Assembly: GCA_027577415.1 (NCBI GenBank)
Contig: JANBQS010000079.1
Location: 1-39,376 of the forward strand
Source of the DNA: Coemansia sp. RSA 922
Taxonomy: Eukaryota > Kickxellomycota > Kickxellomycetes > Kickxellales > Kickxellaceae
DNA: 39,376 bases
Direction of reading: 5' to 3'
The position numbers were made by a program, and so were the translations under genes. The notes under the pieces were generated by a model. It worked only from the letters and a program-made list of their open reading frames with translations, was not told where the DNA came from and did no database searches. Below are positions 3,967 through 33,800 of this stretch, piece by piece; position 1 is the first letter of the stretch, and the number at the start of each line of letters is the position of its first letter.

Positions 3967-6882
3967 ATGTCGGGTGACCCTTCAAGCTCGCCAGTACTTG
4001 GCCAAGACTCGGACGTCGAGGACTTTAACATTGGAGCAGATGAGTATAATATGCTTCCAGCGACACCAGCGCCGTTCTCGCCGCCGCCACTTCCAGTTGG
4101 CCGCAACCGGCTGCAGCAGTCACAGCAAGGAGCGAGCCAGACGGGACGCGTAGCAGCAGGTCGCAACAACAACGCGATTCTCTCCTCATCGCCACGTCTC
4201 GGTTTTAGCGACATGCCATCGACACCTGGCGGTGGGCTCAACTTTGGGCACAGCAGCCAGCTAGCGGCGGCAGGCATGGCAGGCGGCTACTCTGACGCGC
4301 TATCTTCTCAGCTGGACAGCATGAGCATGAACGTGCAGCCAGCCAGGACGGCCAGCGGACACCGGCGTGGCGACTTGGGATCTCGCGCGCAGGCGCTGTC
4401 ATCAGAGCTAGGCGGCATGGAGCCCAGCGGCGGGCCATCTGAGGGGGCAGCGCAGCCCAAGGAGATCCGCACGATCTGGGGTACCATCGTCCATGTGCGC
4501 GACGTAATGAGCTCATTCAAGGACTTTTTGCTGCACTTTACTCCCAAGCACCGGCCGCCCGCCGACAGTGCCAACATGTCCGAGGCTGAGCTCAACGAGC
4601 CCGTGTACCCGCAGCTACTCAAGCGTATGCACGACTCTGAGATCTTCCAGCTCAACCTCGACGCGCAGAACCTAAAGGCATATCCGCTGTCACAGAGCCT
4701 GTACCGGCAGCTAGTCAACTACCCGGAGGAGGTGGTGCCTATTATGGACTACGTGCTTACTGAACTGTATTTGGAGCAGTTCCCCAGCGCCGACGTTGAT
4801 CTGGCGCAGTCGGACCTCAAGGTGCGGCCGTACAACCTGAGCACCTCGACCAACATGCGCGATCTCAACCCCAGCGACATTGACAAGATGGTGTGCGTGC
4901 GCGGCATGCTCATCCGCTCGTCGTCAGTCATCCCCGACATGGAGCGGGCGTTCTTCCGGTGCCTGCACTGCGACTGGACGACGACGGTGGGCATTGACCG
5001 CGGCGTCATCAGCGAGCCCACGCAGTGCGGCAACACGTCGTGCCTGCAGAAGGAGTGCATTGAGCTGGTGCACAACCGCAGCTCGTTCGCCGACAAGCAG
5101 CTGTCGCGGCTGCAGGAGACCCCCGAGGTCATTCCCGACGGACAGACCCCGCACACAGTGACTCTGGTTATGCACGACGAGCTGGTCGACGTGGCCAAGC
5201 CCGGCGACCGCCTGGAGATCACGGGAATCTACCGCGGCGTGCCAGTGCGCACCAACCCCCGCAACCGCACTGTGCAGGCCATCTACCGCACGTACATTGA
5301 CATTGTGCATATCCGCCGCCTGGGCCGCAGCCGCGTCCAGCGCGCGACCAAAGAGGGCCTGGACGTGGCCGAGGCCGTCGTCGACCCACAGCGCGAGCTG
5401 GCCACGGCGGCGTCTGATGGGTCGGAGGGCGATGATTCCAAGAACCAGGCCTTCACTCAGCATGAGATTGACGAGTTCAAGAGGTGGTCGCGCGACCCGC
5501 GTCTCTTCGACATCCTCTCGCGCTCGGTAGCTCCGAGCATCTACGAGATGGACGATGTCAAGCGCGGCCTGCTCTTGCAGCTGTTTGGCGGTGTGCGCAA
5601 GCAGTTTGCCCGCGCTGGCGCCCCCCGCTCCCGCGGCGACATCAACGTGTTGCTGGTCGGTGACCCTGGTGTGTCAAAGTCGCAGATGCTTTCTGCCGTG
5701 CACTCGTTGGCGCCTCGCGGTATTTATACCTCGGGAAAGGGCAGCTCGGCTGTCGGTCTCACCGCCTATATCACGCGCGACCCTGATACCCGCCAGCTGG
5801 TGCTCGAGTCCGGAGCCCTGGTGCTGTCAGACGATGGCGTGTGTGCCATTGACGAGTTTGACAAAATGTCGGAATCCACTCGCTCCGTGCTGCACGAAGT
5901 CATGGAGCAGCAGACTATTTCTATTGCCAAGGCTGGCATCATCACGTCGCTGAACGCGCGCTGCTCAATTCTTGCTGCTGCCAACCCCGTCAACAGCAAG
6001 TGGGACAAGGACCTGAGTATTGTGGAAAACATGAACTTGCCGCCTACCCTGGTCTCCCGCTTTGACCTAGTGTTTATTGTGCTGGATACTGTTGATGAGA
6101 CCATGGATCGCCGCCTGGCTCGCCACATTGTCGGCCTGTACACTGACGAGGCGAATGTCGATGAGGCTGTTAGCGATGTGGAGAGTATGCCCATGGTGCC
6201 CACGGAGAAACTGACTCGCTATATCGCCTATGCTCGTCGCTACGTCAAGCCTACGATCACTGACGAGGCAGCCACCGCGTTGGTCCAGGCGTACGTTGAT
6301 TTGCGTCGCATGGGTCGCGACACTGCCGCTGCCAACACGACCTCTGCCGCCGTGCAGGCAGGCAACAGCGCCAATGGCCGAGTCACTGCTACTGCGCGTC
6401 AGCTGGAGTCTATGATCCGTATGGCTGAAGCTCACGCCAAAATGCGTCTTTCCGAATTGGTCGACGCCAACGACGTGCACGAGGCATCGAAGCTTATGCG
6501 CGAGGCTCTGCGCGAGTCTGCCACTGACCCACGTACTGGCCTTATTGACTTGGACTTGCTCAACACTGGGTTTGCTGCTAGCGACCGCCGCCAGCTGGAC
6601 GCTATCAAGCGCGAGACTCGTAGTTTGTTGCTTGCTGCTGTGCGCTCTAATACCGTGCGTGGTGATAGTTCGGAGGGCGCGCTTCCTGATTCTCCTCACT
6701 CGGGTAATAGTGCTACATACCAGATTTGGTTGGAGCGCCTCAACGAGCAATCATACTCGCCGGTGCCGCCTCGCTTGTTTGACCAGGTTATTCGCGAACT
6801 GCAAACTGAGGGCACTATAAATGTCGTTGGATCTGGTCGCAATATGCTTATTGTCGTCAAGCAAAGCGCTATTCATAACTAG
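3967..6882 (+). CDS. MCM4: DNA replication licensing factor MCM4
   Basis: This is a subunit of the nuclear MCM2-7 replicative helicase, 971 residues with no intron. The N-terminal ~150 residues are Ser/Pro/Gly-rich and disordered, as expected for the Cdc7-Dbf4 target tail. The OB/zinc domain follows, with a zinc finger starting CLHC near residue 331 and closed by a second cysteine pair about 20 residues on (C-G-N-T-S-C). The AAA+ core carries Walker A GDPGVSKSQ (~565), Walker B CAIDEFDKM (~625), sensor 1 AAANPVNSKWD (~672) and the arginine finger LVSRFDL (~696). The C-terminus ends in a winged-helix-like segment. The linker after the AAA+ core has an Ala/Thr-rich insert (about 783-800). Subfamily assignment rests on the zinc-finger spacing and the DDLSIVENMNLPPTLVSRF-type region. 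The ATG at 3967 directly follows an A-rich leader. Confidence 0.95.
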   Translation: MSGDPSSSPVLGQDSDVEDFNIGADEYNMLPATPAPFSPPPLPVGRNRLQQSQQGASQTGRVAAGRNNNAILSSSPRLGFSDMPSTPGGGLNFGHSSQLAAAGMAGGYSDALSSQLDSMSMNVQPARTASGHRRGDLGSRAQALSSELGGMEPSGGPSEGAAQPKEIRTIWGTIVHVRDVMSSFKDFLLHFTPKHRPPADSANMSEAELNEPVYPQLLKRMHDSEIFQLNLDAQNLKAYPLSQSLYRQLVNYPEEVVPIMDYVLTELYLEQFPSADVDLAQSDLKVRPYNLSTSTNMRDLNPSDIDKMVCVRGMLIRSSSVIPDMERAFFRCLHCDWTTTVGIDRGVISEPTQCGNTSCLQKECIELVHNRSSFADKQLSRLQETPEVIPDGQTPHTVTLVMHDELVDVAKPGDRLEITGIYRGVPVRTNPRNRTVQAIYRTYIDIVHIRRLGRSRVQRATKEGLDVAEAVVDPQRELATAASDGSEGDDSKNQAFTQHEIDEFKRWSRDPRLFDILSRSVAPSIYEMDDVKRGLLLQLFGGVRKQFARAGAPRSRGDINVLLVGDPGVSKSQMLSAVHSLAPRGIYTSGKGSSAVGLTAYITRDPDTRQLVLESGALVLSDDGVCAIDEFDKMSESTRSVLHEVMEQQTISIAKAGIITSLNARCSILAAANPVNSKWDKDLSIVENMNLPPTLVSRFDLVFIVLDTVDETMDRRLARHIVGLYTDEANVDEAVSDVESMPMVPTEKLTRYIAYARRYVKPTITDEAATALVQAYVDLRRMGRDTAAANTTSAAVQAGNSANGRVTATARQLESMIRMAEAHAKMRLSELVDANDVHEASKLMREALRESATDPRTGLIDLDLLNTGFAASDRRQLDAIKRETRSLLLAAVRSNTVRGDSSEGALPDSPHSGNSATYQIWLERLNEQSYSPVPPRLFDQVIRELQTEGTINVVGSGRNMLIVVKQSAIHN

Positions 6883-6938: not shown

Positions 6939-7247
6939 CTACATGTGCGAAAATAAACCTATATATTCTTTGTTAGTTTTTAGATATACTTTATATCTGC
7001 CACCTTCCTCTTTGCATTTGTTCATGAATTGCTCAATAATCATGTCGGCTTCAAATATTGCACCCTGGCTGTCGACAATATTAAGCCTAGAATACTTGTT
7101 TAATTCATATTTGGCTTTCATAGCAGTGATAAAACTCTCTCTGCTGTTGGAACTACATTGTACGTCAAAATCCACCTCTACTTTTTTCTCGGCTCTATCT
7201 TCGTTATAGTGAACGAGAAATTTATAAATATTGGTAGTTTTGCTCAT
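6939..7247 (-). CDS. Small orphan-family protein, paralogue A
   Basis: 102 residues, function unknown. It is homologous to the genes at 9124-9507 (B) and 10200-10574 (C). The common pattern is a beta-hairpin opening, an (S/T)-N-x-R-x-x-F-(I/M) motif entering a helix (here SSNSRESFI), a G-A-(I/T)-F turn (QGAIF), then F-M-N-K-C and a Y-K-V-Y-L-K-T-N-K-E-Y strand. The alternation suggests a compact beta-grasp-like alpha/beta domain, which is a structural guess. A start at 7253 is possible. I prefer 7247 because TGAATATGAG around this ATG is shared with B and C. No signal peptide or membrane segment is visible. It is tail-to-tail with MCM4, with 56 bp between stops. A lacks the ~25-residue C-terminal helix present in B and C. 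Confidence 0.65.
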   Translation of the reverse strand: MSKTTNIYKFLVHYNEDRAEKKVEVDFDVQCSSNSRESFITAMKAKYELNKYSRLNIVDSQGAIFEADMIIEQFMNKCKEEGGRYKVYLKTNKEYIGLFSHM

Positions 7248-7396
7248 ATTCAAATAAACTATAGTTCGTCTGTTGGCTATGTTTAACCTGTCCCTTTTTA
7301 ACGTAATATGTAAAAGAGAGAAAAAAAAGAGAAAAATGGAAAGAAGAAAGAGAGCTTGTTAGAGTAGGAGAAAAAAATAGGGCCTTGAGCTTTTGT

Positions 7397-7652
7397 TCTT
7401 TATTTAAAGCATTGGAAATGCCCACCCAACATTTTTTTTCTTCTATTCAGACATGATTTGGAACAAGGCTGGCCCCTTTTTTTGTTCAAAAGAAATCGAG
7501 TGAGAGGCGAAAGAAATTTCAATGGCCCGGGCATTCCAGAAAACATTTTTTTGCCGCTTTGCAACGTCATGTCTGAAAAATGTTGGGGGAGAGAGGGACA
7601 GTATTTATTTTTGTCAACGCGTGGAGAACTGTGCACAAAGCATACAAAGCAA
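7397..7652 (-). promoter_or_regulatory. Promoter of paralogue A with modules shared with B
   Basis: Reading upstream from the ATG at 7247, there is a TATA-like CTTTAAATAAAG at 7398-7409. Next is an ATGATTTGGAA...AGGCTGGC block at 7453-7478 (about -206 to -231). Last is GTGCACAAAGCATACAAAGC at 7631-7650 (about -384 to -403). The last two have close counterparts at the same distance from the start of gene B. An imperfect inverted repeat (CCAACATTTTT ... CAGACATG at 7427-7455 against CATGTCTGAAAAATGTTGG at 7568-7586) brackets the middle part. Confidence 0.45.
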
Positions 7653-7899
7653 GCTGACTTAATGACTTTGGATTTTTTGTTCCAAGAATAAATTTTTTTG
7701 GTTGGGGGGAATGCTAAAGTCTAACCCCAACACCCTTTTTTTTGTTCTTGCACTATAAAATCATGCCATTTTTGTGTAGTTTACATCGGCTATTTTTTGT
7801 TAGACCTCACTAATATAAATAGTAATGGAGATATTTGGTGGGGGTATCCGGGATGTAGAATAATTGGCTAGTAAGATTTGTATTTCAGTGATAGTTGCT

Positions 7900-8025
7900 T
7901 TATTCCGAATCAGGGCTACACCACAGGCGTCCTTGGATAATAACACAGCTTCGTTCTTTGAGAGGTACAGCGGTAGCGATGGTAGCAGCCACGAGGGTAA
8001 ACAGGGCAAATGAATATAGTTTCAT
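7900..8025 (-). CDS. Putative small secreted peptide (41 residues)
   Basis: A 41-codon frame encodes a clear signal-peptide-like N-terminus (Met-Lys, then a 14-residue hydrophobic core, A-T-A before the predicted cut near residue 19). A 22-residue mature part follows with two cysteines (S-C-V-I-I ... L-W-C-S). A TATA box (GAATATAAAAAG) lies about 115 bp upstream, the same spacing as in genes B and D. The peptide could be longer: GTGTAG at the Trp-Cys codons and TTACTAG about 50 bp on could be an intron, giving a different tail. I do not recognise the family. The alternative is a chance short ORF, but signal sequence plus TATA argue for a gene. Confidence 0.4.
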   Translation of the reverse strand: MKLYSFALFTLVAATIATAVPLKERSCVIIQGRLWCSPDSE

Positions 8026-8135
8026 AATGTCAAGCAACGATAGATATCTAAAAAAAAAAAAAAGAATATTTTAGTGGGGCAAGGTTTAAATGGTGTATGA
8101 GAGAGTACCAAAAACTAGCCTCTACAGGTAGCCTC

Positions 8136-8143
8136 TTTTTATA
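8136..8143 (-). promoter_or_regulatory. TATA box of the putative secreted peptide gene
   Basis: TATAAAAA on the minus strand, 111-118 bp above the ATG at 8025. Between them lies a 13-T tract ending in AG (8051-8063), which could be the acceptor of a 5'-leader intron. Confidence 0.4.
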
Positions 8144-8165
8144 TTCACAAATAAAAGTATTTTTG

Positions 8166-8306
8166 CTCATTCTCATGGCACATGTCGAATGAGGTGGGAA
8201 CCAGAGCCAAAAACGTGAGAATAAGTTCCATGTCCTCGTATTGTTTGATTATTCTCACAGGTTATACAAGCCGACACTCGTATAGAATTACTACTAGCAT
8301 AACCTG
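8166..8306. repeat. Three consecutive inverted repeats
   Basis: There are three perfect inverted repeats in 141 bp. CTCATTC/GAATGAG (8166-8172, 8187-8193) has a 14-nt loop. GTGAGAATAA/TTATTCTCAC (8215-8224, 8249-8258) has a 24-nt loop. CAGGTTAT/ATAACCTG (8258-8265, 8299-8306) has a 33-nt loop. The last two arms share a base. They may form hairpins in RNA or mark a degenerate mobile element; no coding frame crosses them. Confidence 0.5.
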
Positions 8307-9123
8307 GAAAACCCTCCCTCTTTGTACCTTGAAATAGTGCCAGGTTTTTTTTGTTTTGTTTTTCCTTTTCTGGGAATAACAGCCATGCTTTCTTGTCACA
8401 ATCAACACGGCCCTTTTTTTGCCTAATAGAGGGGAAAAAACAACTGAAGCCCTTTATTCAGCTGTCCTAACATCACTCTTTGTAAAGTCATATCTTGTAG
8501 TGCTGGGAACAGAGCTTTTTGTTAAAATCGACAAGAGAAGAACAAAGCGAGGAGGCTTGCTTCGACCATCTCAATGCCCGAATTACAGTTTTTAGGGATA
8601 ATCCTATCAAAACCCCAGTGCTCATCCTTGACCTTATTTAAAAAAATGTTCTCTGGCACTTGGGCACGGCGGGATGCTGGTTGCCGAGAGCCAGTACAAT
8701 AAAAATATGGAATTTGCCAAGATCGGGTATCCTGACCCTGACCATAGCCACATTACTCTTCACGGAGGTTGAATAGGGAGTCATTACCCTCGAGACAGAA
8801 CTAAAACATTATTTTATTGCTACCCCCCACAACTAGCATAACAAATGTATACATTTCTCTCTGATCTCTGATTCTATTTGTATGCCAAGTTGCCTCTATT
8901 TTATCTCCATTTCTAAAAAATAACTATAGTTAACATGTTCTCGATATTATAATAGACATATGTTTCAACTCATAAATCCATTAGAAACAAACAAATACAA
9001 GAACTAAAGAAAATACTATTGGTGCGTCACAGAAGACGAGGAAACCTAAACTAAAGAGTTGGGTGGCGGGCGCTTGCACAATCCAGCAAACCAAATGTCT
9101 TATTACTCGTGCTACAGAAAAGT
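8307..9123. other. Gene-free AT-rich stretch
   Basis: I see no convincing gene. Both strands give only short frames, the longest about 48 codons on the minus strand near 8640-8785, without similarity or composition bias. No tRNA-like A/B boxes are visible. Poly-T and poly-A runs are common. Confidence 0.5.
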
Positions 9124-9507
9124 TCACTGGTCTGTTTGCAGTTGTTGGCAGATATCTTTAATGTATGCCTCCCACTTATATATAGCATTATTCATGGTCC
9201 TCTTAACAAATTCTATGTACTCGGTTGGTGTCATTAAACACACCACGTAGTTGCCATTTCCATTATCATGACACTTTGTGATAAAATGCTCTACGCTCGT
9301 TTCCTTGACAAACGTTGCGCCATGTTTGTCACCAACAACTTGGCACTTGTCAACTGATTCTAAACCAAGGGCTTCCTTCAAAGTTTGCATAAACGCGTCC
9401 CTATTATTGGTAGTTTCGTTTAGATAGAAGGGAAAACTCTTTCTACCCTCCTTGCCACTGTTGTTGTAGACAACGTTAAAGACTAGTTCACGGGGATTTT
9501 CACTCAT
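9124..9507 (-). CDS. Small orphan-family protein, paralogue B
   Basis: 127 residues, function unknown. It is the closest relative of C: both open L-V-F-N-V-(V/L)-Y, carry L-N-E-(T/S)-T-N-(N/D)-R-x-x-F-M, a G-A-T-F turn, F-(I/V)-x-x-C, and a strand ending C-L-M-T-x-x-E-Y. They finish with a charged helix containing W-E-A-Y. The pattern suggests one small cytosolic alpha/beta domain plus a C-terminal helix. The frame is open to 9615, but those 36 residues translate a pyrimidine-rich leader. The ATG at 9507 lies in the TGAATATGAG context shared with A and C. The gene is not obviously transferred, as its codon use is AT-leaning like that of A, C and D. Confidence 0.7.
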   Translation of the reverse strand: MSENPRELVFNVVYNNSGKEGRKSFPFYLNETTNNRDAFMQTLKEALGLESVDKCQVVGDKHGATFVKETSVEHFITKCHDNGNGNYVVCLMTPTEYIEFVKRTMNNAIYKWEAYIKDICQQLQTDQ

Positions 9508-9565
9508 ATTCAATAGCTGGAAAGTTTGCGAAAACAAGAGAAAGGCGAGAAAAAAAAATGGTGAG

Positions 9566-9589
9566 GAGAGTTGAAAAGAGAGTTGAAAA
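9566..9589 (-). repeat. 12-bp tandem duplication in the leader of gene B
   Basis: GAGAGTTGAAAA is repeated exactly twice (9566-9577, 9578-9589). On the sense strand it reads TTTTCAACTCTC, a pyrimidine-rich leader motif. The leader of gene D contains a related TTTTCAACACCC. Confidence 0.7.
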
Positions 9590-9608
9590 GGTGGAGGGGG
9601 CAGACCTT

Positions 9609-9645
9609 GCTCCAACTCTTCTTTTTAGCCGCCTCAAAGTCAACC
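9609..9645 (-). promoter_or_regulatory. Core promoter of gene B (conserved with gene C)
   Basis: On the sense strand a GACTTTGAG box is followed 6 bp later by a TATA-like TAAAAAGAAGAG and then GGAGCAA. The same three elements in the same order occur above gene C (23 of 27 aligned columns identical in the central part). The TATA-like element lies about 115 bp above the ATG. Confidence 0.55.
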
Positions 9646-9717
9646 ACCCCTGCCCTTGGTCCTCTTCCCTCGAGCAAGGGAAAAAAGTCTCCTTTTGTCT
9701 CAAGCTAGCATTAGCTA

Positions 9718-9885
9718 TGATTTGGAAGGGGCGAGGCTGGTCTTTTAGGAAAAGAAGGAAAAACTTGTGCGGCAAAAAGGCCTTTCAACCACCCAGAGAT
9801 CACGCCATTGTCCCAGTCAAGCCGCTAAATGCGGGAAACAAGGTTTTTTTGTCGGGTAAAAGTGCAAACAAAGCACACAAAGCAA
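9718..9885 (-). promoter_or_regulatory. Upstream modules of gene B shared with gene A
   Basis: ATGATTTGGAA ... AGGCTGGT at 9718-9744 (about -211 to -237) and GTGCAAACAAAGCACACAAA at 9862-9881 (about -355 to -374) match the two modules above gene A in sequence, order and distance. On the sense strand the distal one is a double GCTTTGT repeat. Confidence 0.45.
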
Positions 9886-10199
9886 AAAGGTTTCCTTTTT
9901 AAGTATTTGCGTACCGAGCTTTCTTTCTCGTTAAAAGAAATTTGCCAAGGATGTGCCAGCAATGGCTACCAACAAGCTTCTGTCCCGCTTTCAACCTTTT
10001 GAAGCTTAAAAGAAAAGCCAAATGGATTTTCTCTTGCAACTTTTTGGTTGGCGTATCCTTTTGTAAGGCCTGGGGCAAGGCGCAGCTATACAGTTGCCAA
10101 TTTTTTTGTTACATTTTAAAAAGTATATTATACACAAAATAATTGCCCCCAAAGGCATAAACTACATAAAAAACAGATATCTACACAAGGCATACTAGT
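9886..10199. other. Gene-free spacer between B promoter and gene C
   Basis: AT-rich sequence with homopolymer runs. Nothing recognisable was found on either strand. It must contain the 3' UTR of gene C. Confidence 0.5.
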
Positions 10200-10574
10200 T
10201 TATTGCTGCTGGCGAGCAAGAAACATATATGCCTCCCACATGGCCATACTACTTCTTAATGTTCTCCCAACAAATGACAGGTACTCGCCATTGGTCATTA
10301 GACATATCTTGTATTTACCATCATCACCCTTGTAGCAGTTTCTGACAAATCGCTCAACAGTCATATCTTGTTTTGTAAATGTTGCACCACATTCGTCATA
10401 AACAATTTGAAACCCACTAGTCGAGCTCAAGCCAAGTTGTTGCTGCAGTGCCAGCATAAAGGTTTGTCTGTCGTTGGTACTCTCATTTAAATCAAATTGG
10501 ACATCTTCAGTTGCGCTCACACCATCTTTGGTGTAAAGAACGTTGAAAACTAGGCTGCAAGGCATTGTGCTCAT
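10200..10574 (-). CDS. Small orphan-family protein, paralogue C
   Basis: 124 residues, function unknown, homologous to A and B. Visible family residues are LVFNVLYTKDG at the start, FDLNESTNDRQTFM into the helix, the CGATF turn, then FVRNC and KYKICLMTNGEY, and a C-terminal helix with M-W-E-A-Y-M. The acidic FDLNE strand and the polar loop DDGKY are plausible surface features. The ATG at 10574 is chosen because of the shared TGAATATGAG context and because residues upstream of it translate promoter and leader. There are no signal peptide, membrane segment or metal-ligand clusters. B and C are tandem copies with about 690 bp between them. Confidence 0.7.
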   Translation of the reverse strand: MSTMPCSLVFNVLYTKDGVSATEDVQFDLNESTNDRQTFMLALQQQLGLSSTSGFQIVYDECGATFTKQDMTVERFVRNCYKGDDGKYKICLMTNGEYLSFVGRTLRSSMAMWEAYMFLARQQQ

Positions 10575-10651: not shown

Positions 10652-10693
10652 GCTCCCGCCCTCTCTTCTTTTTAAGTTGTCTCAAAGTCGGCC
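10652..10693 (-). promoter_or_regulatory. Core promoter of gene C (conserved with gene B)
   Basis: The sense strand shows GACTTTGAG, then TTAAAAAGAAGAG, then GGGAGCAAATGTCTG, matching the gene B core element by element. It lies about 80-120 bp above the ATG at 10574. Confidence 0.55.
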
Positions 10694-11355: not shown

Positions 11356-11703
11356 ATGCTGGGTCAGAATTTGGCAAAGCTTTTACGGGGACCTGCGACG
11401 GCCTTCTACCGGCTACGCATGGACGGATTATTTGGTGGAGTGGCTATACAGCATGGCAACAACAAACCAAAGTCGTTGCACAAAACGCGGCGAATCTGGC
11501 TCCCCAACATTCAAAAAGTCACGGTATACTCTGCAATCCTCGACAAGAAACTAAAACTGCGTATGACCTCTCGTATTCTGCGCACGATTGACAAAAAGGG
11601 CGGGTTTGATAACTACTTGCTTGAAACCAAGGACAAGAATATCGCCAGCGAGCTAGGACTAGAGCTCAAGCAAACTTTACAAAAAGCGTTACAAGCAAAG
11701 TAG
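11356..11703 (+). CDS. MRPL24: Mitochondrial large-subunit ribosomal protein bL28m
   Basis: 115 residues. It is an rRNA-binding protein of the mitochondrial large ribosomal subunit. The bL28 signature is present: K-S-L-H-K-T-R-R-I-W-L-P-N-I-Q (~39-53), then V-Y-S-A-I-L-D-K-K-L-K-L-R-M-T, and the L-R-T-I-D-K-K-G-G-F-D-N-Y-L-L motif (~76-91). The first ~20 residues (MLGQNLAKLLRGPATAFYRL) are basic and amphipathic, consistent with a mitochondrial presequence. Yeast MRPL24 (bL28m) is longer, so this is a compact version. The stop lies 28 bp from the stop of the convergent RNF220 gene, so their 3' UTRs must overlap. Confidence 0.88.
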   Translation: MLGQNLAKLLRGPATAFYRLRMDGLFGGVAIQHGNNKPKSLHKTRRIWLPNIQKVTVYSAILDKKLKLRMTSRILRTIDKKGGFDNYLLETKDKNIASELGLELKQTLQKALQAK

Positions 11704-25169: not shown

Positions 25170-26362
25170 ACACCGCTCGATAGTAATGGTCTTCGATATA
25201 GCAAAGTATAATAATAATAATAAAAATAGTGAGCAGACAAACTAGAAGGAAAAAAAATCCTAGTCTTGGAGGGCACTAGTTGTCACCCGCATCTTTGCTG
25301 AACTGCAGTAGCATGCTCGGTATTTAGCAACTGCTCGTCATCCCCCTTATAACATTCTTTGTCGTGCGGGGTTGATAGTGACCCTGCAGGTGAGCGATTT
25401 AAAGGAGGAATTAGAAGCCCTTAACAGGCCAGTGACCGACGCTAGCGTGAATGTGCAGGGACTCCTGCTAATACTGCTAGCAGTGGCAATATGCGAATCG
25501 AGGTGATGCCCACAAACTTACAAGCTGGTTGAGATTATACACGGGCACAGTTACTTAAGTGTAAGATGGGCCGGCAGCGGCTACATTGTACTACTTCCAC
25601 TCCCGCACTCGACGGATAGGGTCTTTGGTCCCTGGCTAGCCACCATCCTGCCTTGCTATCTAAATGGATGGCTGTTCCTCGTACATAAGCTGGCAATTAG
25701 AAACAAGCAAACGTAGAAGAAATCCTTTATTGACATCTCAGAGAGCTGCCACTTGAGCGAATAAGTTAACCCCAAGGCATAAAAAATAAATGTCGACGAA
25801 AGGAAGAAGTAAAAAAACGATGGTGCTTCACGCCTGCCAAAAAGACACACTAGAATTGCAACTGGCATAGTCTGCTGACAGGCAGTTGCCATGGGCTTTG
25901 AAAGTGAATCCTTTGGGCATGCAAAAAAAAAACCACGGACTTTTGCGAAAGCCCAATCCGCCTGCCAATCGTGTTTGTGCTGCTAGCGAGTGCCCAAGTG
26001 CCAAGCAATTGGGGTTTCAAAAAGACCTTTGCACACACCTACACACACATCAACTCTACTCGATGATTGGCTTCCCTGCAAAAGAGGATAAAAATAGTTG
26101 ACAACGTGGTCGCCTTAGTGGAAAGGAGCACTTTTCGTCATCAACTCTTGACAGAGCTGAGCGCTGCAGCACGTTCCCACTTTTTCGAAGACTAACCAAT
26201 AAGGAAGAGTTCCTCTCTTGGATTTCAAAGGCGACACCGCGCGTCATCTTGCCTTTGAAATAGATTGGATGCCTTTTGTCAAAGAAAACAGCGCGAACAG
26301 ACAAGTTGCGTAATGAAAGTGTTGGAGTGCTGGCGAGGAAAAAAATGCCTACTCATTCTGTG
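25170..26362. other. Gene-free stretch of about 1.2 kb
   Basis: I see no convincing gene. A 78-codon minus-strand frame at 25656-25892 is Phe/Leu-rich but has no family features. An (ATA)n microsatellite lies at 25207-25222, just above the LPMO-like gene. The stretch 25310-25660 is more GC-rich than a normal spacer and could be a decayed gene, but no frame survives. The right part is the promoter of gene D. Confidence 0.5.
26222..26261. repeat. Perfect 11-bp inverted repeat above gene D
   Basis: ATTTCAAAGGC (26222-26232) and its complement GCCTTTGAAAT (26251-26261) flank an 18-nt spacer, about 220-255 bp above the gene D start. This could be a dimeric operator or a hairpin. Confidence 0.6.
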
Positions 26363-26370
26363 TATAAAAA
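26363..26370 (+). promoter_or_regulatory. TATA box of gene D
   Basis: TATAAAAA in the context CTGTGTATAAAAAGGCGG, 109-116 bp above the ATG at 26479. A pyrimidine-rich leader with TTTTCAACACCC follows. Confidence 0.6.
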
Positions 26371-26478
26371 GGCGGCCAGTTTCCCATGAGTTTTTGTTGT
26401 TAGCTACATCTTCTACCAGCTCTCATTTTCAACACCCATTTTTTTACTCCCCACTACATACTACTTGCTTATTTAAAC

Positions 26479-26739
26479 ATGACTGAGATTATATTCAGAT
26501 TTATATTCAATAAGGTACCTTACCCTGTAAAGGCAGAATCCGGTGAAAAGTTTAGCAAGGTTGTTGAGGCTTTCAGAAAGGAACATGTCTCTGAAGGCTA
26601 CCAGAGCAACCAGATGAAAGTTATAGACCTTTTTGGAAAAGAAGTTAAATATGACGCCAAAACCGTACAAGAGGTTTTTGATAGTACGAGATTTGCAAAG
26701 ATAGGCGAAGTTCGTCACGTAAATTTTAGTGATAACTAG
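26479..26739 (+). CDS. Small orphan protein D, possible distant paralogue of A-C
   Basis: 86 residues, function unknown. It starts with a hydrophobic strand (I-I-F-R-F-I-F-N), then a polar strand, a helix (FSKVVEAFRKEH), a strand with K-V-I-D-L-F-G-K-E-V, a T-V-Q-E-V-F helix and a final strand (EVRHVNFSD). This is the order seen in A-C: opening F-N strand, helix with conserved F, V-x-G-x-x-F/V turn, V-E-x-F helix, closing strand. Sequence identity is low, so homology is a hypothesis. The TATA box, pyrimidine leader and size agree with B and C. It lacks the TGAATATGAG start context. The pattern is compatible with a ubiquitin-like beta-grasp fold. Confidence 0.55.
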   Translation: MTEIIFRFIFNKVPYPVKAESGEKFSKVVEAFRKEHVSEGYQSNQMKVIDLFGKEVKYDAKTVQEVFDSTRFAKIGEVRHVNFSDN

Positions 26740-27111
26740 CCACTTAACAATTAACTGTCGTACACTGTATGTTAGGTATACTGGCAATGTTTTAAAAGGA
26801 CAAACGTCATTTTCTACCATTGAGAAGCCACTCACTAATTATCAGTAGCTTTTTTACTAGTCTTATAATAGCCATCAATAAAAAAACATATACCAGCTAA
26901 CATTTTAAATCGTGTTACTCACTCGTTACAACATCTACTCAATTTCCTTATGTGGTGTAAATACAAGCACTATTTTGCTCATATACTTCAAATGAACACA
27001 GCTTAATCGCGCCCATTATTCTTTGGCACATATCGAAGTTGTTATCACATTAATTAGCTCTTTCGAAGGCTCGTATAATTTTTAGCACGTAGTTACTTCT
27101 TTATTATCAAA
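26740..27111. other. Spacer between gene D and the fructosamine kinase gene
   Basis: AT-rich spacer with no gene seen. AATAAAAAAAC at 26877-26887 may be a poly(A) signal for gene D. Confidence 0.45.
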
Positions 27112-28038
27112 ATGAACAGCACAAATTCAACCGTCGAGCTCATCAAGGCCTTGAACTGTTCTGGGCAGTTTGTAGATGACACTATCACTTTGCTGACTCC
27201 CATTGGCAGCAGTAAGATAAACGATACATATATGGCTGACACGACTAACGGATGCCGGTACTTTGTCAAGCACCACATCACTGACACCGATATGGACCAG
27301 CAGTCATGTATAAAGATGTTTGAAGCAGAGGTAGCGGGACTAAGCGCTCTACAACAGACTGGCGCATTCCGTGTGCCTCAGACACTTGGTATAGTCCCAG
27401 TGCCCAATGGCGCCTTCCTGATAACCGAGTATATTCAGCTGCAGCCGCTTAGCGACCAGAAAAATTTTGGCCAAGCACTAGCCGCAATGCACTTGGTCAA
27501 GGGACCGGATAAGTTTGGATTCCACATCGACAACTACATTGGCACCACGCCACAGCTAAACAGTTGGAAGGAGAGCTGGATAGACTTTCTATATATGAGG
27601 CTAAAGTTCCAGTTTGACCAAGCACCATTTCCCGAAGAGGCGCAGAGACAGGCTGAACAGCTACTAGCGAACCTTCCGACCTTCTTTCAGGACATACCAA
27701 ATATAGTCCCGTCGATCATTCATGGCGATCTGTGGAGCGGCAACTGTGCGGCGGACGAAAATGGAGAGCCAGTGGTTTATGATCCAGCAGTCTACTGGGG
27801 TCACAACGAGTCGGAGCTTGGCATCATGAGACTGTTTGGCAGATTTAGTGACGAGCTCTATGAGGCATATCACGCATATATCCCCAAAGCACCGGGTTTC
27901 GACAAGCGCGCTCCTATCTATGAACTATACCACCTCGTCAACCATCTCAACATGTTTGGCGTAGCTTATCTGGGTCGCTGCACACACTTGCTACAAATTA
28001 TCAGCGATCAGCTAGCCCAAGATATGGCGAATAAATGA
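27112..28038 (+). CDS. FN3KRP: Ketosamine/fructosamine 3-kinase
   Basis: 308 residues, APH-like kinase fold. These enzymes phosphorylate C3 of ribulosamine or fructosamine residues on glycated proteins, making the sugar unstable so that the amine is freed. The nucleotide-binding lobe has I-G-S-S-K-I-N-D-T-Y (~38-47) and the ATP-contacting Lys in Y-F-V-K-H-H (~56). The catalytic loop is I-I-H-G-D-L-W-S-G-N (~203-212), with the metal-binding Y-D-P-A-V-Y-W-G-H-N-E-S-E-L-G-I (~223-238). The family usually has a similar Y-D-P-A-x-x-Y/W-G-H block. The C-lobe follows with Y-E-A-Y. Nothing is missing. The gene is convergent with the GH17 gene, with 51 bp between stops. Confidence 0.9.
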   Translation: MNSTNSTVELIKALNCSGQFVDDTITLLTPIGSSKINDTYMADTTNGCRYFVKHHITDTDMDQQSCIKMFEAEVAGLSALQQTGAFRVPQTLGIVPVPNGAFLITEYIQLQPLSDQKNFGQALAAMHLVKGPDKFGFHIDNYIGTTPQLNSWKESWIDFLYMRLKFQFDQAPFPEEAQRQAEQLLANLPTFFQDIPNIVPSIIHGDLWSGNCAADENGEPVVYDPAVYWGHNESELGIMRLFGRFSDELYEAYHAYIPKAPGFDKRAPIYELYHLVNHLNMFGVAYLGRCTHLLQIISDQLAQDMANK

Positions 28039-28067
28039 TACTGCACAATGTTCTAGCTAATGTTGAG

Positions 28068-28073
28068 AATAAA
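28068..28073 (+). terminator. Poly(A) signal of the fructosamine kinase gene
   Basis: AATAAA 29 bp after the kinase stop and 16 bp before the stop of the convergent GH17 gene, so the 3' UTRs overlap. Confidence 0.55.
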
Positions 28074-28089
28074 AACGACTACTTCATAC

Positions 28090-29265
28090 TCAAATGAAGG
28101 CAGACACGGCCAGAGCGGCCATCGACGCAGCAATGCTCACAGCCGAGAGGCCTGAGCCAACTGGCGACCACGCGGCGCTGTTCTTGCTCGTATCAGATTT
28201 CTCCTGAGAGTCGGATGACTTGTCGCTATCGCTGTCCGTGCCCGAGGGCTTGCCATCGCTCTTGTCAGTGTTCGAGTGGCCGTTTGGCGTGCTGGAAGGC
28301 TTGCTGCCAGTTTTGGACGACGACGATGACGCAGGCGTCGACGAGGAAGAGGACGAAGACGGCTTATTGCTGGGAACAAAGCCCTTGCAGTCATACATCG
28401 GGGAAGCAAACTTTGGCGTCTTGTCGCCCTTTAGGACACCCCAGTGAGTCTCCACGTCGCTGGCATTAGTGACGGGCTTCCAAGCCTCGTCAAACGCCGA
28501 GAACCAAATGTAGTCGATTTTCTCCAAATTGGCACGGCAAATAAACTCCTTCAGGTAGCGCTGCTCGTTAGCCAGGGAGGGCACGGCAGCATCAAAGTTG
28601 CCACCAGCGTCGGGCCAGCCAGTCTCGCCCACGACGACCTTCTTTGAGCCAGCCAGCTTTTGGATGGCATAGATGTGCTCAAACACCTTGTCCTGGGCAC
28701 CCTCGATAGGAGTGCCCTCCCAGAACGGGAAGGCGTGGACGTTGACATAGTCGACAGCTGCAACCAAGGTTGGGTCGTAGTAGGGCCAGGTCTCGGAGGC
28801 CGTGACAGGGATGCTGCCCAGGCCGATCTTGGTCAAAGCGGCCTTTGTATCGCGGACCTTGGCGGCGATCTGAGCCGACGTCTGCTCCTTGCGGTAGATG
28901 GCCTCATTGCCGACAATAACAGCAGAGACGTGCTTTTTGAAATCAAACACGCCAGCCAGACGGATAAGCTCGTTTCTGTCAGCCTCGTACACGGACTCGA
29001 CGTTGCTGACCCACATGCCTAGCTGCACCTTCCAGTCGGTGTTCTCCATGGCGCGGAGGACAGGCTCGCCCTGGTTGCAGTCTTTGACCGAGTAGATACG
29101 CACTTGGTTGGTGTACTTGCTGAGCACGCTCAGGTCATCACGCACCGTGTCGACTGTTGGGCAGGCGCCAGTCTTGAGCTGCTTCGGGTTATACGAAAAG
29201 CCGTTGAATAGGTTGGCCGCGGCGGCAGCCGTGGCAAGGGTAGCCAGCGTAAGTGTCAGCTTCAT
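28090..29265 (-). CDS. GPI-anchored GH17 beta-1,3-glucanase/glucanosyltransferase
   Basis: 391 residues. It is a cell-wall enzyme of the Bgl2/Scw family acting on beta-1,3-glucan. The signal peptide is residues 1-17 (MKLTLTLATLATAAAAA). The TIM barrel runs from FNGFSYNPKQ to about residue 300. The proton-donor Glu is in I-V-G-N-E-A-I-Y-R (~119) and the nucleophile Glu is in V-V-V-G-E-T-G-W-P (~215). Two cysteine pairs are likely. A ~70-residue Ser/Thr/Lys/Asp linker follows, suitable for O-mannosylation. The end is a small-residue region plus a hydrophobic tail (SAVSIAASMAALAVSAFI), typical of a GPI signal. Codons are C/G-ending as in PAB1, suggesting high expression. A TATA box lies ~145 bp upstream. 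Confidence 0.93.
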   Translation of the reverse strand: MKLTLTLATLATAAAAANLFNGFSYNPKQLKTGACPTVDTVRDDLSVLSKYTNQVRIYSVKDCNQGEPVLRAMENTDWKVQLGMWVSNVESVYEADRNELIRLAGVFDFKKHVSAVIVGNEAIYRKEQTSAQIAAKVRDTKAALTKIGLGSIPVTASETWPYYDPTLVAAVDYVNVHAFPFWEGTPIEGAQDKVFEHIYAIQKLAGSKKVVVGETGWPDAGGNFDAAVPSLANEQRYLKEFICRANLEKIDYIWFSAFDEAWKPVTNASDVETHWGVLKGDKTPKFASPMYDCKGFVPSNKPSSSSSSSTPASSSSSKTGSKPSSTPNGHSNTDKSDGKPSGTDSDSDKSSDSQEKSDTSKNSAAWSPVGSGLSAVSIAASMAALAVSAFI

Positions 29266-29407
29266 GGTTTAGGTATAAATTGCGAAATGTAAGGACTAGT
29301 TGGCCAGCAACACAAAGGGGGGGGGGAAGATAGGGAACAGAGTGTAGATAGAGTGGAGAGAGGGAGAGATAGAAAGCGCGGTCTCAATAGTCCCATCCAG
29401 GAGACTG

Positions 29408-29461
29408 TTTTATAGTGGGGCAGTTTTGTACTCCCCAAAAGCACAACAACTCCTATAAATA
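29408..29461. promoter_or_regulatory. Paired divergent TATA boxes, GH17 / DUS2
   Basis: TATAAAA on the minus strand at 29408-29414 serves GH17 (ATG at 29265). TATAAATA on the plus strand at 29454-29461 is about 165 bp above the DUS2 ATG. The two are only 39 bp apart within a 358-bp divergent promoter. A G9 run at 29318-29327 lies in the GH17 leader region. Confidence 0.55.
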
Positions 29462-29623
29462 GTTGGCCTCCAAAAATATGTGGCCTGACAGGCTCGCTTC
29501 TGAGGATTTTCCAGCTCGGCTCGCTACATTAGTCTTCAGTTAGCTTCCTGAATTTCGGCAAGTCTTCCTTTGCTTATAAACCAAATTACTATTGTTATTT
29601 CCTATTTGGCATTGAACTAAAGC

Positions 29624-30745
29624 ATGGCCTCGAATGCAATGACCACGAATGACAGCAAGCGCACAGAATGGAGAGACAGATACCGGAACGGGTTCTTCCT
29701 TGCGCCTATGGTCAGAGTCGGCACTCTCCCTATGCGCCTGCTGGCACGGCAGTACGGAGCTGACTTGCTGTGGGCGCCCGAAATTGTCGACAAGAGCATT
29801 GTGGGCTGCGAGCGAGTAGTTGACGACAAGACAGGCGTCATATCCTATATAAAGCACGACAAGGATATATTCACTACGCATCCTAGCGAGAAGCAGCAGG
29901 TGATATTCCAGCTCGGATCGGCTGGACCCGAAACTGCGCTGGCAGCAGCCAAGGCCGTCGAACAGGACGTGTCTGGGTTTGACCTGAATTGCGGGTGTCC
30001 GAAAAAGTTTTCGATCCAAGGCGGAATGGGCGCAGCTCTCATGTCAGATCCCGACAGACTGTGCTCGATTCTCGATGTACTCGTGAAGAACATCGATCTG
30101 CCTATTACTTGCAAGATTCGGGTGTTTGACGACGTGGAAAAGACTCTGGAGCTGGTCAGAAAGATCGCCGCTACGGGAATTTCGGCACTGACTGTGCATT
30201 GTCGCACAAGGGATATGCGACCGCACGAAAAAGCCATGTGGAGCCGCCTGAAGGACGTAGTTAGCGAGCTGCCGGATCTGCCTATAATCCTTAACGGCGA
30301 TATCTACGAGTACGCAGACGTGCAAAGGGCACGCGATGAAACCGGTGCGAGCAGCGCTATGACTGCCCGAGGGGCGGCTGCTAACCCGTCGATATTCCGC
30401 TCCGAGGGCATGTTGCCTACGATGGAAGCTGCCCAGGAGTACACAAAGTACGCTGTGCGAACCAGCAACAACTTTGTCAACACAAAGTACACGCTGCTGC
30501 AAATGTACCCCGATACAAAGACCGAGCAGTTTGCCTTGCTTCGTGGCACGCGCAAGTACAAGGACATGTGCGAGGCAATGGGTCTGGCCGAGTTTTACGA
30601 GTCTGAGGGCGCAGAGCTTGTCCATAGCCGCGCTGAGCCTCCGGACGCCAACGCCAATAAGCGGTCTACGTCAACCACAGACACAACCTTACAATGCGTA
30701 GCTGAATCGGCTTCCAAGCCCTCACCAAAACGGGTTAAGGTTTGA
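29624..30745 (+). CDS. DUS2: tRNA-dihydrouridine(20) synthase DUS2
   Basis: 373 residues. This FMN enzyme reduces U20 in the D-loop of cytosolic tRNAs. The TIM barrel starts with F-F-L-A-P-M-V-R-V-G-T-L-P-M-R-L-L-A, a DUS2 rather than DUS1/3 signature. The catalytic Cys is residue 125 in D-L-N-C-G-C-P-K-K-F-S-I-Q-G-G-M-G-A-A-L. T-C-K-I-R-V and H-C-R-T-R-D follow, and I-L-N-G-D-I-Y at ~222 contacts the FMN phosphate side. The C-terminal helical tRNA-binding domain is present (F-V-N-T-K-Y-T-L-L-Q-M). There is no dsRNA-binding domain like that of the animal enzyme. The last ~40 residues are Ser/Thr/Lys-rich and end in a basic PKRVKV that could be a nuclear signal. Confidence 0.92.
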   Translation: MASNAMTTNDSKRTEWRDRYRNGFFLAPMVRVGTLPMRLLARQYGADLLWAPEIVDKSIVGCERVVDDKTGVISYIKHDKDIFTTHPSEKQQVIFQLGSAGPETALAAAKAVEQDVSGFDLNCGCPKKFSIQGGMGAALMSDPDRLCSILDVLVKNIDLPITCKIRVFDDVEKTLELVRKIAATGISALTVHCRTRDMRPHEKAMWSRLKDVVSELPDLPIILNGDIYEYADVQRARDETGASSAMTARGAAANPSIFRSEGMLPTMEAAQEYTKYAVRTSNNFVNTKYTLLQMYPDTKTEQFALLRGTRKYKDMCEAMGLAEFYESEGAELVHSRAEPPDANANKRSTSTTDTTLQCVAESASKPSPKRVKV

Positions 30746-30886
30746 TGGCCATGTGATTTTTTTTATTCACCAATACATACGCGATCTAGAGCTGTTCCAG
30801 GGCCGTGCTCGCTTCTTCCTTTTTTTCAATTGTACTAATTCGCCTCGCATTTTTTCTTCTATTTTTTTTTTTACTAGTGGGGACAA

Positions 30887-33800
30887 ATGCCACCAGTAAA
30901 CCCAGCATCTGGTCGTAGTCATGTCTCCATTTTCGACAGGCGTGGCCAAAAGCCCAATCGTGGACGCACACCGGCTGGAGGAGCCTCGAATGCCAACCAG
31001 TCGTCTAGTCATCGCGGCAGTGGCAGCGGCAACCAGAGCGCACATGGCGACGACGCCAGCCAGGGCGCCGGCGCGCTATTTAACAAAACGTGTATGCTAA
31101 GAGTTCACGAGGATACCTTTTCGTCGAGTGACTTGGTGCTGAACCCGTCGTTCTTTCCGGGCATCCGCGTGGGCGATATTGTCGCTATCAGACCCATTCC
31201 CGACGGCGATGACGGCAGCGGAGACGTAGCCTCGCCCAAGGGCCAATTAGACACAGAGTCTGGAGCAGGCGGAGCCCATACGAGTGAATCCGCCAACACT
31301 AGCAGCAAAGGCAAGAGCGCTGCACCACCGCATGGCAAGCCTTCCACTACAACAGCAAACAGCGGCCAAGTCACCGATACTGGCGAACAGGGCGCTGACT
31401 CGAAGCCTGGTCCAGGTCGGGTAGAGTTGCGCGACCAGCCGCGTGGAACGACGTTGGATACTGGTCGCGCTGGCGATGCGCGTCGCACGGGTCAACCCTC
31501 TGGCTCATTTACGCCCAAAACGCCAAGCAGGTGGCGAGTCATGAGGGAGAGCAGTGGGGAACTTGTGCGCGATGAGGAGCGTGCCGACGACGACCACAAC
31601 GAGAGCATTTTAAAGCCCGACCCGCATCGTGAGATACTGCTAAAAGTAGGCGAGGTTAGAAAGGATGCACAGCTGCTCCAAGCGTCTGTCATCAACCATG
31701 TTGCCCGCGCGCTGTGGGGTGACTACCTGAATAGCCAACGAGTGGCCATTCGCAAGATCGACATGAGACACCCCGACGAGCGCGAGTCTATTCGTGCCGA
31801 TTTTGTTGAAATCGCCTTCCGCGACCAGTACGTCGGCCGCAGCGATATGTGGAGGTTGTGGCGGAACCTGTCGCACAAGATTGTTCACAACAACAAGCCC
31901 ACCAATATGGAGGGCCTGATTCGTGCGTCTGTGCGGCGGATCTACAAGGACGGGCGTCAGATCTCCTGTGGCTACATTGACAGTCAGAGCCAGCCCATCT
32001 TTCGCTCAGAGTCGGGCCGCTTTATGATATTTATTCAAATGTCGGAGGAGATGTGGTCCTACCAGGAGGATGGCAACTTGTGCTTTGAAAAGGCTGTCAA
32101 CTCATTCATGACCGAGTTGTTTCGACGGTGGAACGAAAAGCAGCTTAACCACATGGTGACGATCGTCATGTTTTCGCGTTGGTTCTACAATGCACGCGAT
32201 AGTCTGTTCTTTCAGGATCTGATTCTTGACGAGGACAGCGGCCGATACTACCGCGACTACTACAAGGTTATTGCCGATATGGAGGTTCGCCCAGACTGGT
32301 CCGTGTTTCTGCCTGAGATCCTCTCAGAGTTCAACAGCTACCGCCGCGACATTCAGGAGATCCAAACCATCACTGGCAACCGTCTACGTGGCGATCTGAG
32401 CAAGGCTCACCAGGGCAACATACTTGAGGCGATCAACCTCGGCATAAACAGCTTTTCCAGCCACCACGTAGACCGTGACTTGTCTAGAACGGGACTAAGC
32501 ACTATCGTCATCACGCCGTCGTTTGGCGTCTTTGACGTGACCAAGAAGCTTCTGCGAATGACCACCGAGCGCATGTTGCACTATGGTATGCGTGCCGATT
32601 TCGTGTGTCTCGCTCCAAAGCCACTGTTTAGACCGCCGGTTTTCCGCTTCAAAGCTCCTCCGGTCCCCACCGAGCAAGAGCAAAAGCGTGCGCTGGCGCT
32701 ACGAGAGAATGATAGGATTATCGAGAGGCAAGCCAGGACCACTGAGCTTAACTCAGTCTCGCCGCTAGACGAAGGCCCGCCTGGGTTCATCAGCCCAGTA
32801 ACCAGTACGCACACCGCGGCGCTGCCCAAGGACCGCGGAGAAAAGGCTGTAGCACTATCCACGGCACTTGTCAACGTCGACCCGATCATGCTTGACCCAC
32901 TCTACTTTAACGAGGAAAAGTGGGAGCTAAACCTCCTGCCTTATCTTACTGGCACATCGCCAAAGTCCAATGCCGTTGACGACAGCGTGAAGGCACCATC
33001 GGCTCTCGCAGCGTCAACAGCGGCGCTTGGATCTATTGGCAAGGACTCCAAGCAGGACCCCGACTCTCTGTTCCCCGGCTCGATTGCCAGTGTGCTACTC
33101 AGTAACCCCGACAACGTTTCAGACATCCCCAGCGCAATCTTAGAGTTGCGTACCGCCGACTACCCGTTCTTTTCACAGCCAAAGGCTTGCCCAGCGAACA
33201 AAGATCGCCTTGTCACTCACTGCTATTTCCCGTATTGGGTCGATTGCGGGTTCTACAACAACTTTGACGACCCGGTGTCTGAGCGAGCTAGTAGCTTCAA
33301 GCCCTCGTGTAAGATGGGCGATCTGTCTGTGACTGGCGTGTCTAGCTACATGCGAATGACGCCGTCAGTGCCATATTTAGACTTGAGCACCTTTGACCAG
33401 GGATTGGCTTCGGCGCTAAAGCTTGACACTCAGTCGGTCTCAGGGGTTGATAGCATGGCTGACGAGCGGTTTAGGTCTCGCGATGAGGAATCGCGCTCAA
33501 TGGAGGTACACTTTTTCTCGGCAACTAGGGACGTCGGGCATGGCAGGATTCTCCCGCTGGATCGCAAGCTGCCATCTGTTCATAGCCGCGAGCGGCTTTT
33601 AGACGTGTTTGCCGAATATGACCGCCAGGCTATCGTGGGACTGGGTATGAGTCAAGGAGCTTCTGCTGGCGCTATGCCCGCGGGAGACCATACAACTGGT
33701 GGTGGTGCGGCCGATAGCACTGTTGGCGCAATGCCACAGTCAGCGCTGTTGACTCACACGGGCGGCACCAGTGAGCACCGCCTTCCGCTGGGCTCGGTGA

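Follow-up and report, generated by a model that had tools for sequence, protein, structure and literature searches.

Three tandem paralogues of Coemansia sp. RSA 922 with a predicted ubiquitin-like beta-grasp fold

Many eukaryotic beta-grasp domains that lack a diglycine tail are binding modules. An account of the fold (PMC1949818) counts RA, PB1, FERM-N and DCX among the adaptors and notes that novel families of ubiquitin-like type arise sporadically in eukaryotes; the signature of PB1, as given in another paper (PMC7051960), is the OPCA core D-x-(D/E)-x-(D/E) together with a conserved b1 lysine. The stretch of DNA analysed here (the window; 39,376 nucleotides, contig JANBQS010000079.1 of Coemansia sp. 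RSA 922) contains three small genes, A, B and C, that are paralogues of one another and for which a fold of this kind is predicted:

6939..7247, minus strand: gene A, an open reading frame (ORF) of 102 amino acids, comprising the family core without a C-terminal helix; isoelectric point (pI) 7.7; fold assigned via homology only
9124..9507, minus strand: gene B, an ORF of 127 amino acids with a predicted beta-grasp core at about residues 5-93 and a C-terminal helix at 94-125; pI 5.6
10200..10574, minus strand: gene C, an ORF of 124 amino acids with a predicted beta-grasp core at about residues 6-94 and a C-terminal helix at 95-122; pI 4.8

The paralogue family and its predicted fold

Each frame starts with ATG and runs uninterrupted for 102 (A), 127 (B) or 124 (C) codons, with coordinates and lengths as claimed in an earlier note on this DNA. 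Local alignment scores are 119 for A-B, 140 for A-C and 261 for B-C, compared with shuffle means of 26-28 (standard deviation 4.5-5.0), and because none of 2000 shuffles reached the observed score in any of the three pairs, the similarity is not due to chance: A, B and C are true paralogues and constitute a real gene family, tandemly arranged as had been proposed. Scans of the genome returned the B-C relationship with E-values of 7e-28 and 9e-28, A-C with 4e-11 and 8e-11, and A-B with 2e-7 and 3e-7; pairwise identity is about 44-45% for B-C, 34% for A-C and 30% for A-B. The motifs (S/T)-N-x-R-x-x-F-(I/M), G-A-(T/I)-F and Y-x-(V/I)-x-L-x-T-x-x-E-Y, described previously, are present in all three proteins, and the cysteine motif given with them as F-x-x-C is F-x-x-x-C in the alignments. 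There are 24 invariant columns among the three proteins of the window, and 22 of these persist once the copies from a second haplotype (described below) are added.

AlphaFold2 models of B and C were built from an alignment of six members (A, B, C and the second-haplotype copies). The predicted local distance difference test score and predicted template modelling score are 85.2 and 0.73 for B, and 81.9 and 0.71 for C. Both models have the ubiquitin order of a beta-grasp (b1-b2 hairpin, a1, b3, short b4, connector helix, b5) followed by a long C-terminal helix; hairpin, helix, b3, b4 and b5 in this order, with high structural similarity, place them among the ubiquitin-like beta-grasp folds. B and C are predicted to be compact domains of this type, and A is predicted by its homology to B and C to share the fold, so that the earlier guess of a beta-grasp is supported by prediction (models and fold matches) for B and C. 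The fold matches are many and individually weak, with PB1, RA, ubiquitin-like (UBL), UFM1 and FERM domains tied. The top Foldseek match of C is the PB1 heterodimer of p40phox and p67phox (E 2.4e-3) and the second is the N-terminal domain of kindlin-1 (E 2.7e-3), while PB1 is at rank 6 for B; in the VIA lists the RA domain of RGL1 and the PB1 domains of Par6/aPKC occupy rows 1 and 2 for C and rows 1 and 4 for B, and merlin and ezrin are also among the rows. A viral fold library searched with the model of B yielded nothing at E <= 0.001; the proteins in its first rows are of ubiquitin-like, SUMO-like or RING type or are uncharacterised, most of them from giant viruses and a few from phage, and they indicate nothing beyond the fold.

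These fold matches bring into play an explanation that we consider unlikely, namely that the three proteins derive from PB1 (or RA) domains of a multidomain signalling protein, from which they became detached and then strongly diverged, with the parent's partner retained. Besides the ranks of p40phox/p67phox, RGL1 and Par6/aPKC, it is favoured by the connector helix, by the sequence Y-D-E-x-G that C has where the OPCA loop would lie, and by the presence in the genome of PB1 matches (five at E <= 10, three of them over the cut-off) and RA matches (four, all over the cut-off). However, the OPCA core is absent from all three proteins, the b3-b4 loop being D-E-C-G-A in C, D-K-H-G-A in B and D-S-Q-G-A in A. 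The b1 lysine, which is the K of K-V-H-(Y/F) in L021 and L022, two PB1 domains encoded by this genome, when aligned by eye to F-x-V-x-Y, is absent as well: the residue at this position is L in A (F in the other haplotype) and N in B and C, and A has a lysine two residues before it. The Pfam models of PB1 (PF00564), RA (PF00788) and ubiquitin each match none of the six members. Comparison of the family by hhalign with domains of the same genome (5 of 5 PB1 matches, 6 of 18 ubiquitin-like matches and 4 of 4 RA matches) is within shuffle noise, as column shuffles reached the observed score in 14 of 60 trials for PB1, 21 of 60 for UBL and 30 of 60 for RA, in a test of low power in which the three reference profiles fail to detect one another too. 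The PB1-like character suggested in the earlier note is not upheld by these results. A conjugated ubiquitin-like modifier is excluded because the C-termini lack a diglycine: there is no GG after b5 in B and C, which continue into the long helix, and A ends LFSHM.

The claim that the trio matches no known family agrees with searches of several libraries (Pfam, NCBIfam, PHROGs and PADLOC among them), none of which gave anything over a curated cut-off. Among the six members, Pfam (with filters that drop most matches above about 0.1) gave sub-cut-off matches that differ by gene (DUF7277, Ribosomal_S24e and CDC24 in two members each, Peptidase_C71 in one), NCBIfam and PADLOC matched no member, and PHROGs gave weak and inconsistent matches to 11 families, each in at most two members. 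A large protein set yielded two candidates with B as sole query, none at E <= 1, and 97 candidates with the six-row alignment, none at E <= 10; three-row and six-row profiles found nothing at E <= 10 among PDB sequences; and none of 151 pattern stretches in viral contigs or 65 in prokaryote genome contigs was confirmed. Pseudomurein endoisopeptidase (PF12386) matched B alone, with E 0.0013 and 19 bits compared to a cut-off of 22, and phrog_37889 matched one member of six (E 0.0078); these matches are taken as chance. The Crinkler N-terminal header (PF20147), which we take to be ubiquitin-like, matched none of the six members in the Pfam scan. A word search of open-access literature found nothing, under those words, on orphan or lineage-specific ubiquitin-like fungal proteins or on orphan genes of Kickxellomycotina. 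The empty searches suggest that the family is lineage-restricted, with orphan status relative to the libraries searched, which included no fungal genome collection.

The second haplotype and selection on the proteins

The assembly consists of 20.4 Mb in 960 contigs, of which the window is contig C79. Searches of the assembly with A, B and C each return the same six genes, which are the trio and three counterparts on contig C105, all intact; no further copy was found among the best candidates that this search scores, which leaves room for more distant ones. The window and C105 are collinear in two blocks, window positions 1-25773 at 95.5% identity and 26807-33597 at 97.1%. The assembly contains nine matches to PF00493 (MCM), which by score resemble three close pairs and three singles. 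Six MCM genes would give this pattern if both haplotypes had been assembled for some of them, and on this basis the C105 copies are read as alleles in a second haplotype rather than as extra paralogues; a recent segmental duplication as their source is not strictly excluded. The haplotypes are about 3-4.5% diverged here, and the organism may be a heterozygous diploid or dikaryotic. Between the aligned blocks, about 1.0 kb of the window (25774-26806) corresponds to about 0.2 kb in C105, likely an insertion/deletion allele.

There are no indels between the haplotypes in the 1068 coding bases of A, B and C, compared with 48 in 3405 flanking bases; taking indels as independent, the probability of zero at the flank rate is 3e-7. 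No internal stop occurs in any of the three genes in either haplotype. The ratio of nonsynonymous to synonymous divergence (dN/dS), calculated by the method of Nei and Gojobori between the two haplotypes with Fisher tests on rounded counts, is 0.31 for A (11 synonymous and 18 nonsynonymous differences; P 0.007), 0.12 for C (6 and 3; P 0.003) and 0.71 for B (3.5 and 10.5; P 0.49, not distinguishable from 1), with P 0.0007 for the trio pooled. A and C, with ratios below 1 at these P values, and the pooled trio are under purifying selection; for B this is unproven, and the earlier suggestion of selection on the protein stands to that extent. Differences at codon positions 1, 2 and 3 number 10, 7 and 12 in A, 4, 6 and 5 in B, and 2, 1 and 6 in C, so that a clear third-position bias is present only in C. 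The neighbouring MCM gene has a ratio of 0.03, and six more neighbours, of which one has a gap of 21 bases in its alignment, range from 0.04 to 0.11. Two further rows, sp41 (wrong coordinates and out of frame) and ORF654 (reading frame disrupted by a single-base gap in the alignment), were excluded.

Another explanation is that only C is functional and that A and B are its decaying duplicates, the former truncated and the latter drifting. This fits the stronger constraint on C, the estimate for B, which is not distinguishable from neutrality, the missing helix of A, the AT-rich third positions described below and the loss of two conserved residues in the other haplotype's A and B. It is very improbable, as A and B carry no stop or indel in either haplotype compared with 48 flank indels, A alone is below neutrality, and 22 of 24 invariant columns survive addition of the second haplotype.

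The trio evolves much faster than its neighbour, with 31 nonsynonymous differences in 858 sites pooled compared with 6 in 2200 for the MCM gene (P 2e-12), and the haplotype copies of A differ at 17 of 102 residues. This rate, in a tandem array, could be expected of young, fast-evolving orphan genes with a lineage-specific role in conflict or stress (for example, versus mycoviruses, mycoparasites or a host), for which the beta-grasp would be a convenient scaffold. Every dN/dS estimate is below 1, however, and Pfam, NCBIfam, PHROGs and PADLOC returned nothing over cut-off or consistent across members; this explanation is judged improbable.

Gene A lies where, within 3.5-13.5 kb, the haplotypes differ most: its bin at 7000-7250 has the top divergence among the 250-base bins of that region (10.8%, the next being 10.4% at 8750), and its synonymous divergence is 0.24 versus 0.04-0.11 in seven neighbours, a local excess.

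Intergenic DNA and upstream elements

The trio is flanked on one side by an MCM gene (PF00493 match 5467-6138) and on the other by a Ribosomal_L28 match (11356-11703), which bears out the neighbours named in the earlier note as MCM4 and bL28m, except that MCM4 is that note's own label. The AT-rich island described there is real in that G+C is 0.38-0.43 in 1-kb segments from 7.0 to 11.5 kb, but it is not distinctive, since other stretches of the window are similar (0.388 at 26.0-27.0 kb; 0.427 at 15.5-16.5 kb). Third-position G+C is 0.38-0.46 in A, B and C versus 0.52-0.80 in the seven other genes of the window that were measured. A mobile-element origin of the AT-rich stretch was rejected: apart from itself and its counterpart in the second haplotype, the DNA at 7260-9100 has matches only at three other places, through a short piece, and so, within the reach of the search, it is not a repeated element. 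The short piece, about 145 bases at approximately 8663-8808, has copies of 74-76% identity on contigs C387 (two) and C912 (one), and represents part of a dispersed element, perhaps a degraded transposon. Upstream of the three genes are the following:

7635..7650, minus strand: element GCTTTGTATGCTTTGT upstream of A, common to A and B (A-B upstream match, E 0.002)
9868..9883, minus strand: element GCTTTGTGTGCTTTGT upstream of B (A-B upstream match, E 0.002), with no exact counterpart in B's allele
10663..10689, minus strand: stretch GACTTTGAGACAACTTAAAAAGAAGAG upstream of C, 85% like 9616-9641 before B with one gap (B-C match, E 0.002)

These motifs were picked post hoc, after inspection. The A-B match is an 18-base stretch at 94%, and the B-C match spans 27 columns at 85%; comparison of A with C gave no strong match apart from A-rich runs. 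Exact copies of the core GCTTTGTRYGCTTTGT are present at only three places in the 20.4 Mb assembly. Two of these precede A and B and the third precedes A's allele, whereas B's allele has no exact match. A gapless pattern from the B-C stretch finds only C and C's allele, not B or B's allele. The elements hint at co-duplicated promoters, and might have a role in regulation or co-regulation.

Between A and B, a 41-amino-acid ORF (7900-8025, minus strand) begins like a signal peptide, contains a KER site and carries two cysteines in its tail, and is possibly a gene for a small secreted peptide. The frame is also open in the other haplotype, where residues 1-40 are 90% identical and ATG is replaced by ATA. 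A polypyrimidine-AG lies just upstream and may indicate splicing to an upstream exon, and no other copy was found in the assembly. Neither Rfam (at the gathering threshold) nor a tRNA scan found anything in the window.

Proposed function and comparison with known beta-grasp families

The interpretation that we somewhat favour is that A, B and C are lineage-restricted, tandemly duplicated, non-conjugated intracellular beta-grasp binding modules. Each would consist of one ubiquitin-like beta-grasp domain, extended in B and C by a helix of about 30 residues. Because of the analogy with beta-grasp adaptors that lack a diglycine, the proteins most likely bind protein partners non-covalently, in an adaptor role. 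As with RA, PB1, FERM-F0/F1 and UBL domains, partners would be docked without conjugation, either by the sheet or hairpin that is exposed or, in the case of B and C, by the C-terminal helix as well. The C-terminal helix, whose hydrophobic moment is moderate (B, 0.41-0.51; C, 0.27-0.39), may serve as an extra binding or oligomerisation element, and a cytosolic location is suggested by the lack of any signal sequence visible by eye. A more far-reaching proposal, put forward tentatively, is that the trio represents a new free-standing beta-grasp adaptor family that either originated in a single fungal lineage or changed there until its origin could no longer be recognised, and that multiplied as a tandem array. 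In this view A, which lacks the helix, and B and C, which have it, would be components of one module, a homo- or hetero-oligomer controlled by promoter elements that the genes share, and would function in the manner of PB1 or RA adaptors without their signature residues.

If real and expressed, the trio would be a case in which a fungal lineage has re-used the ubiquitin-like fold as a stand-alone protein, one that sequence profiles miss and predicted structure reveals. It would illustrate that some of the genes counted as "orphans" in sparsely sampled fungi may encode folds that are already known. The beta-grasp fold is itself a common one.

Of the known systems, PB1 domains (PF00564; p40phox, p67phox, Par6, p62, NBR1) are like the trio in size, b-b-a-b-b-a-b order, connector helix and high fold-match ranks, but the trio lacks their acidic OPCA core, b1 lysine and Pfam match, and its members stand alone, with an added C-terminal helix in B and C. 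RA and Ras-binding domains (PF00788; RGL1, RALGDS, PI3K) match the predicted fold in a tie with other families, and the trio has no Pfam match to them. FERM F0/F1 subdomains (kindlin, merlin, ezrin) resemble the trio in predicted fold, with kindlin-1 second in Foldseek for C and merlin and ezrin in rows of the VIA lists, but the trio is not embedded in a FERM protein and has no sequence match. Ubiquitin and UBLs (Dsk2, Hub1, UFM1, ISG15, SLD2 of Rad60) differ from the trio, which has no diglycine tail or sequence match to them and carries, in B and C, an extra long C-terminal helix.
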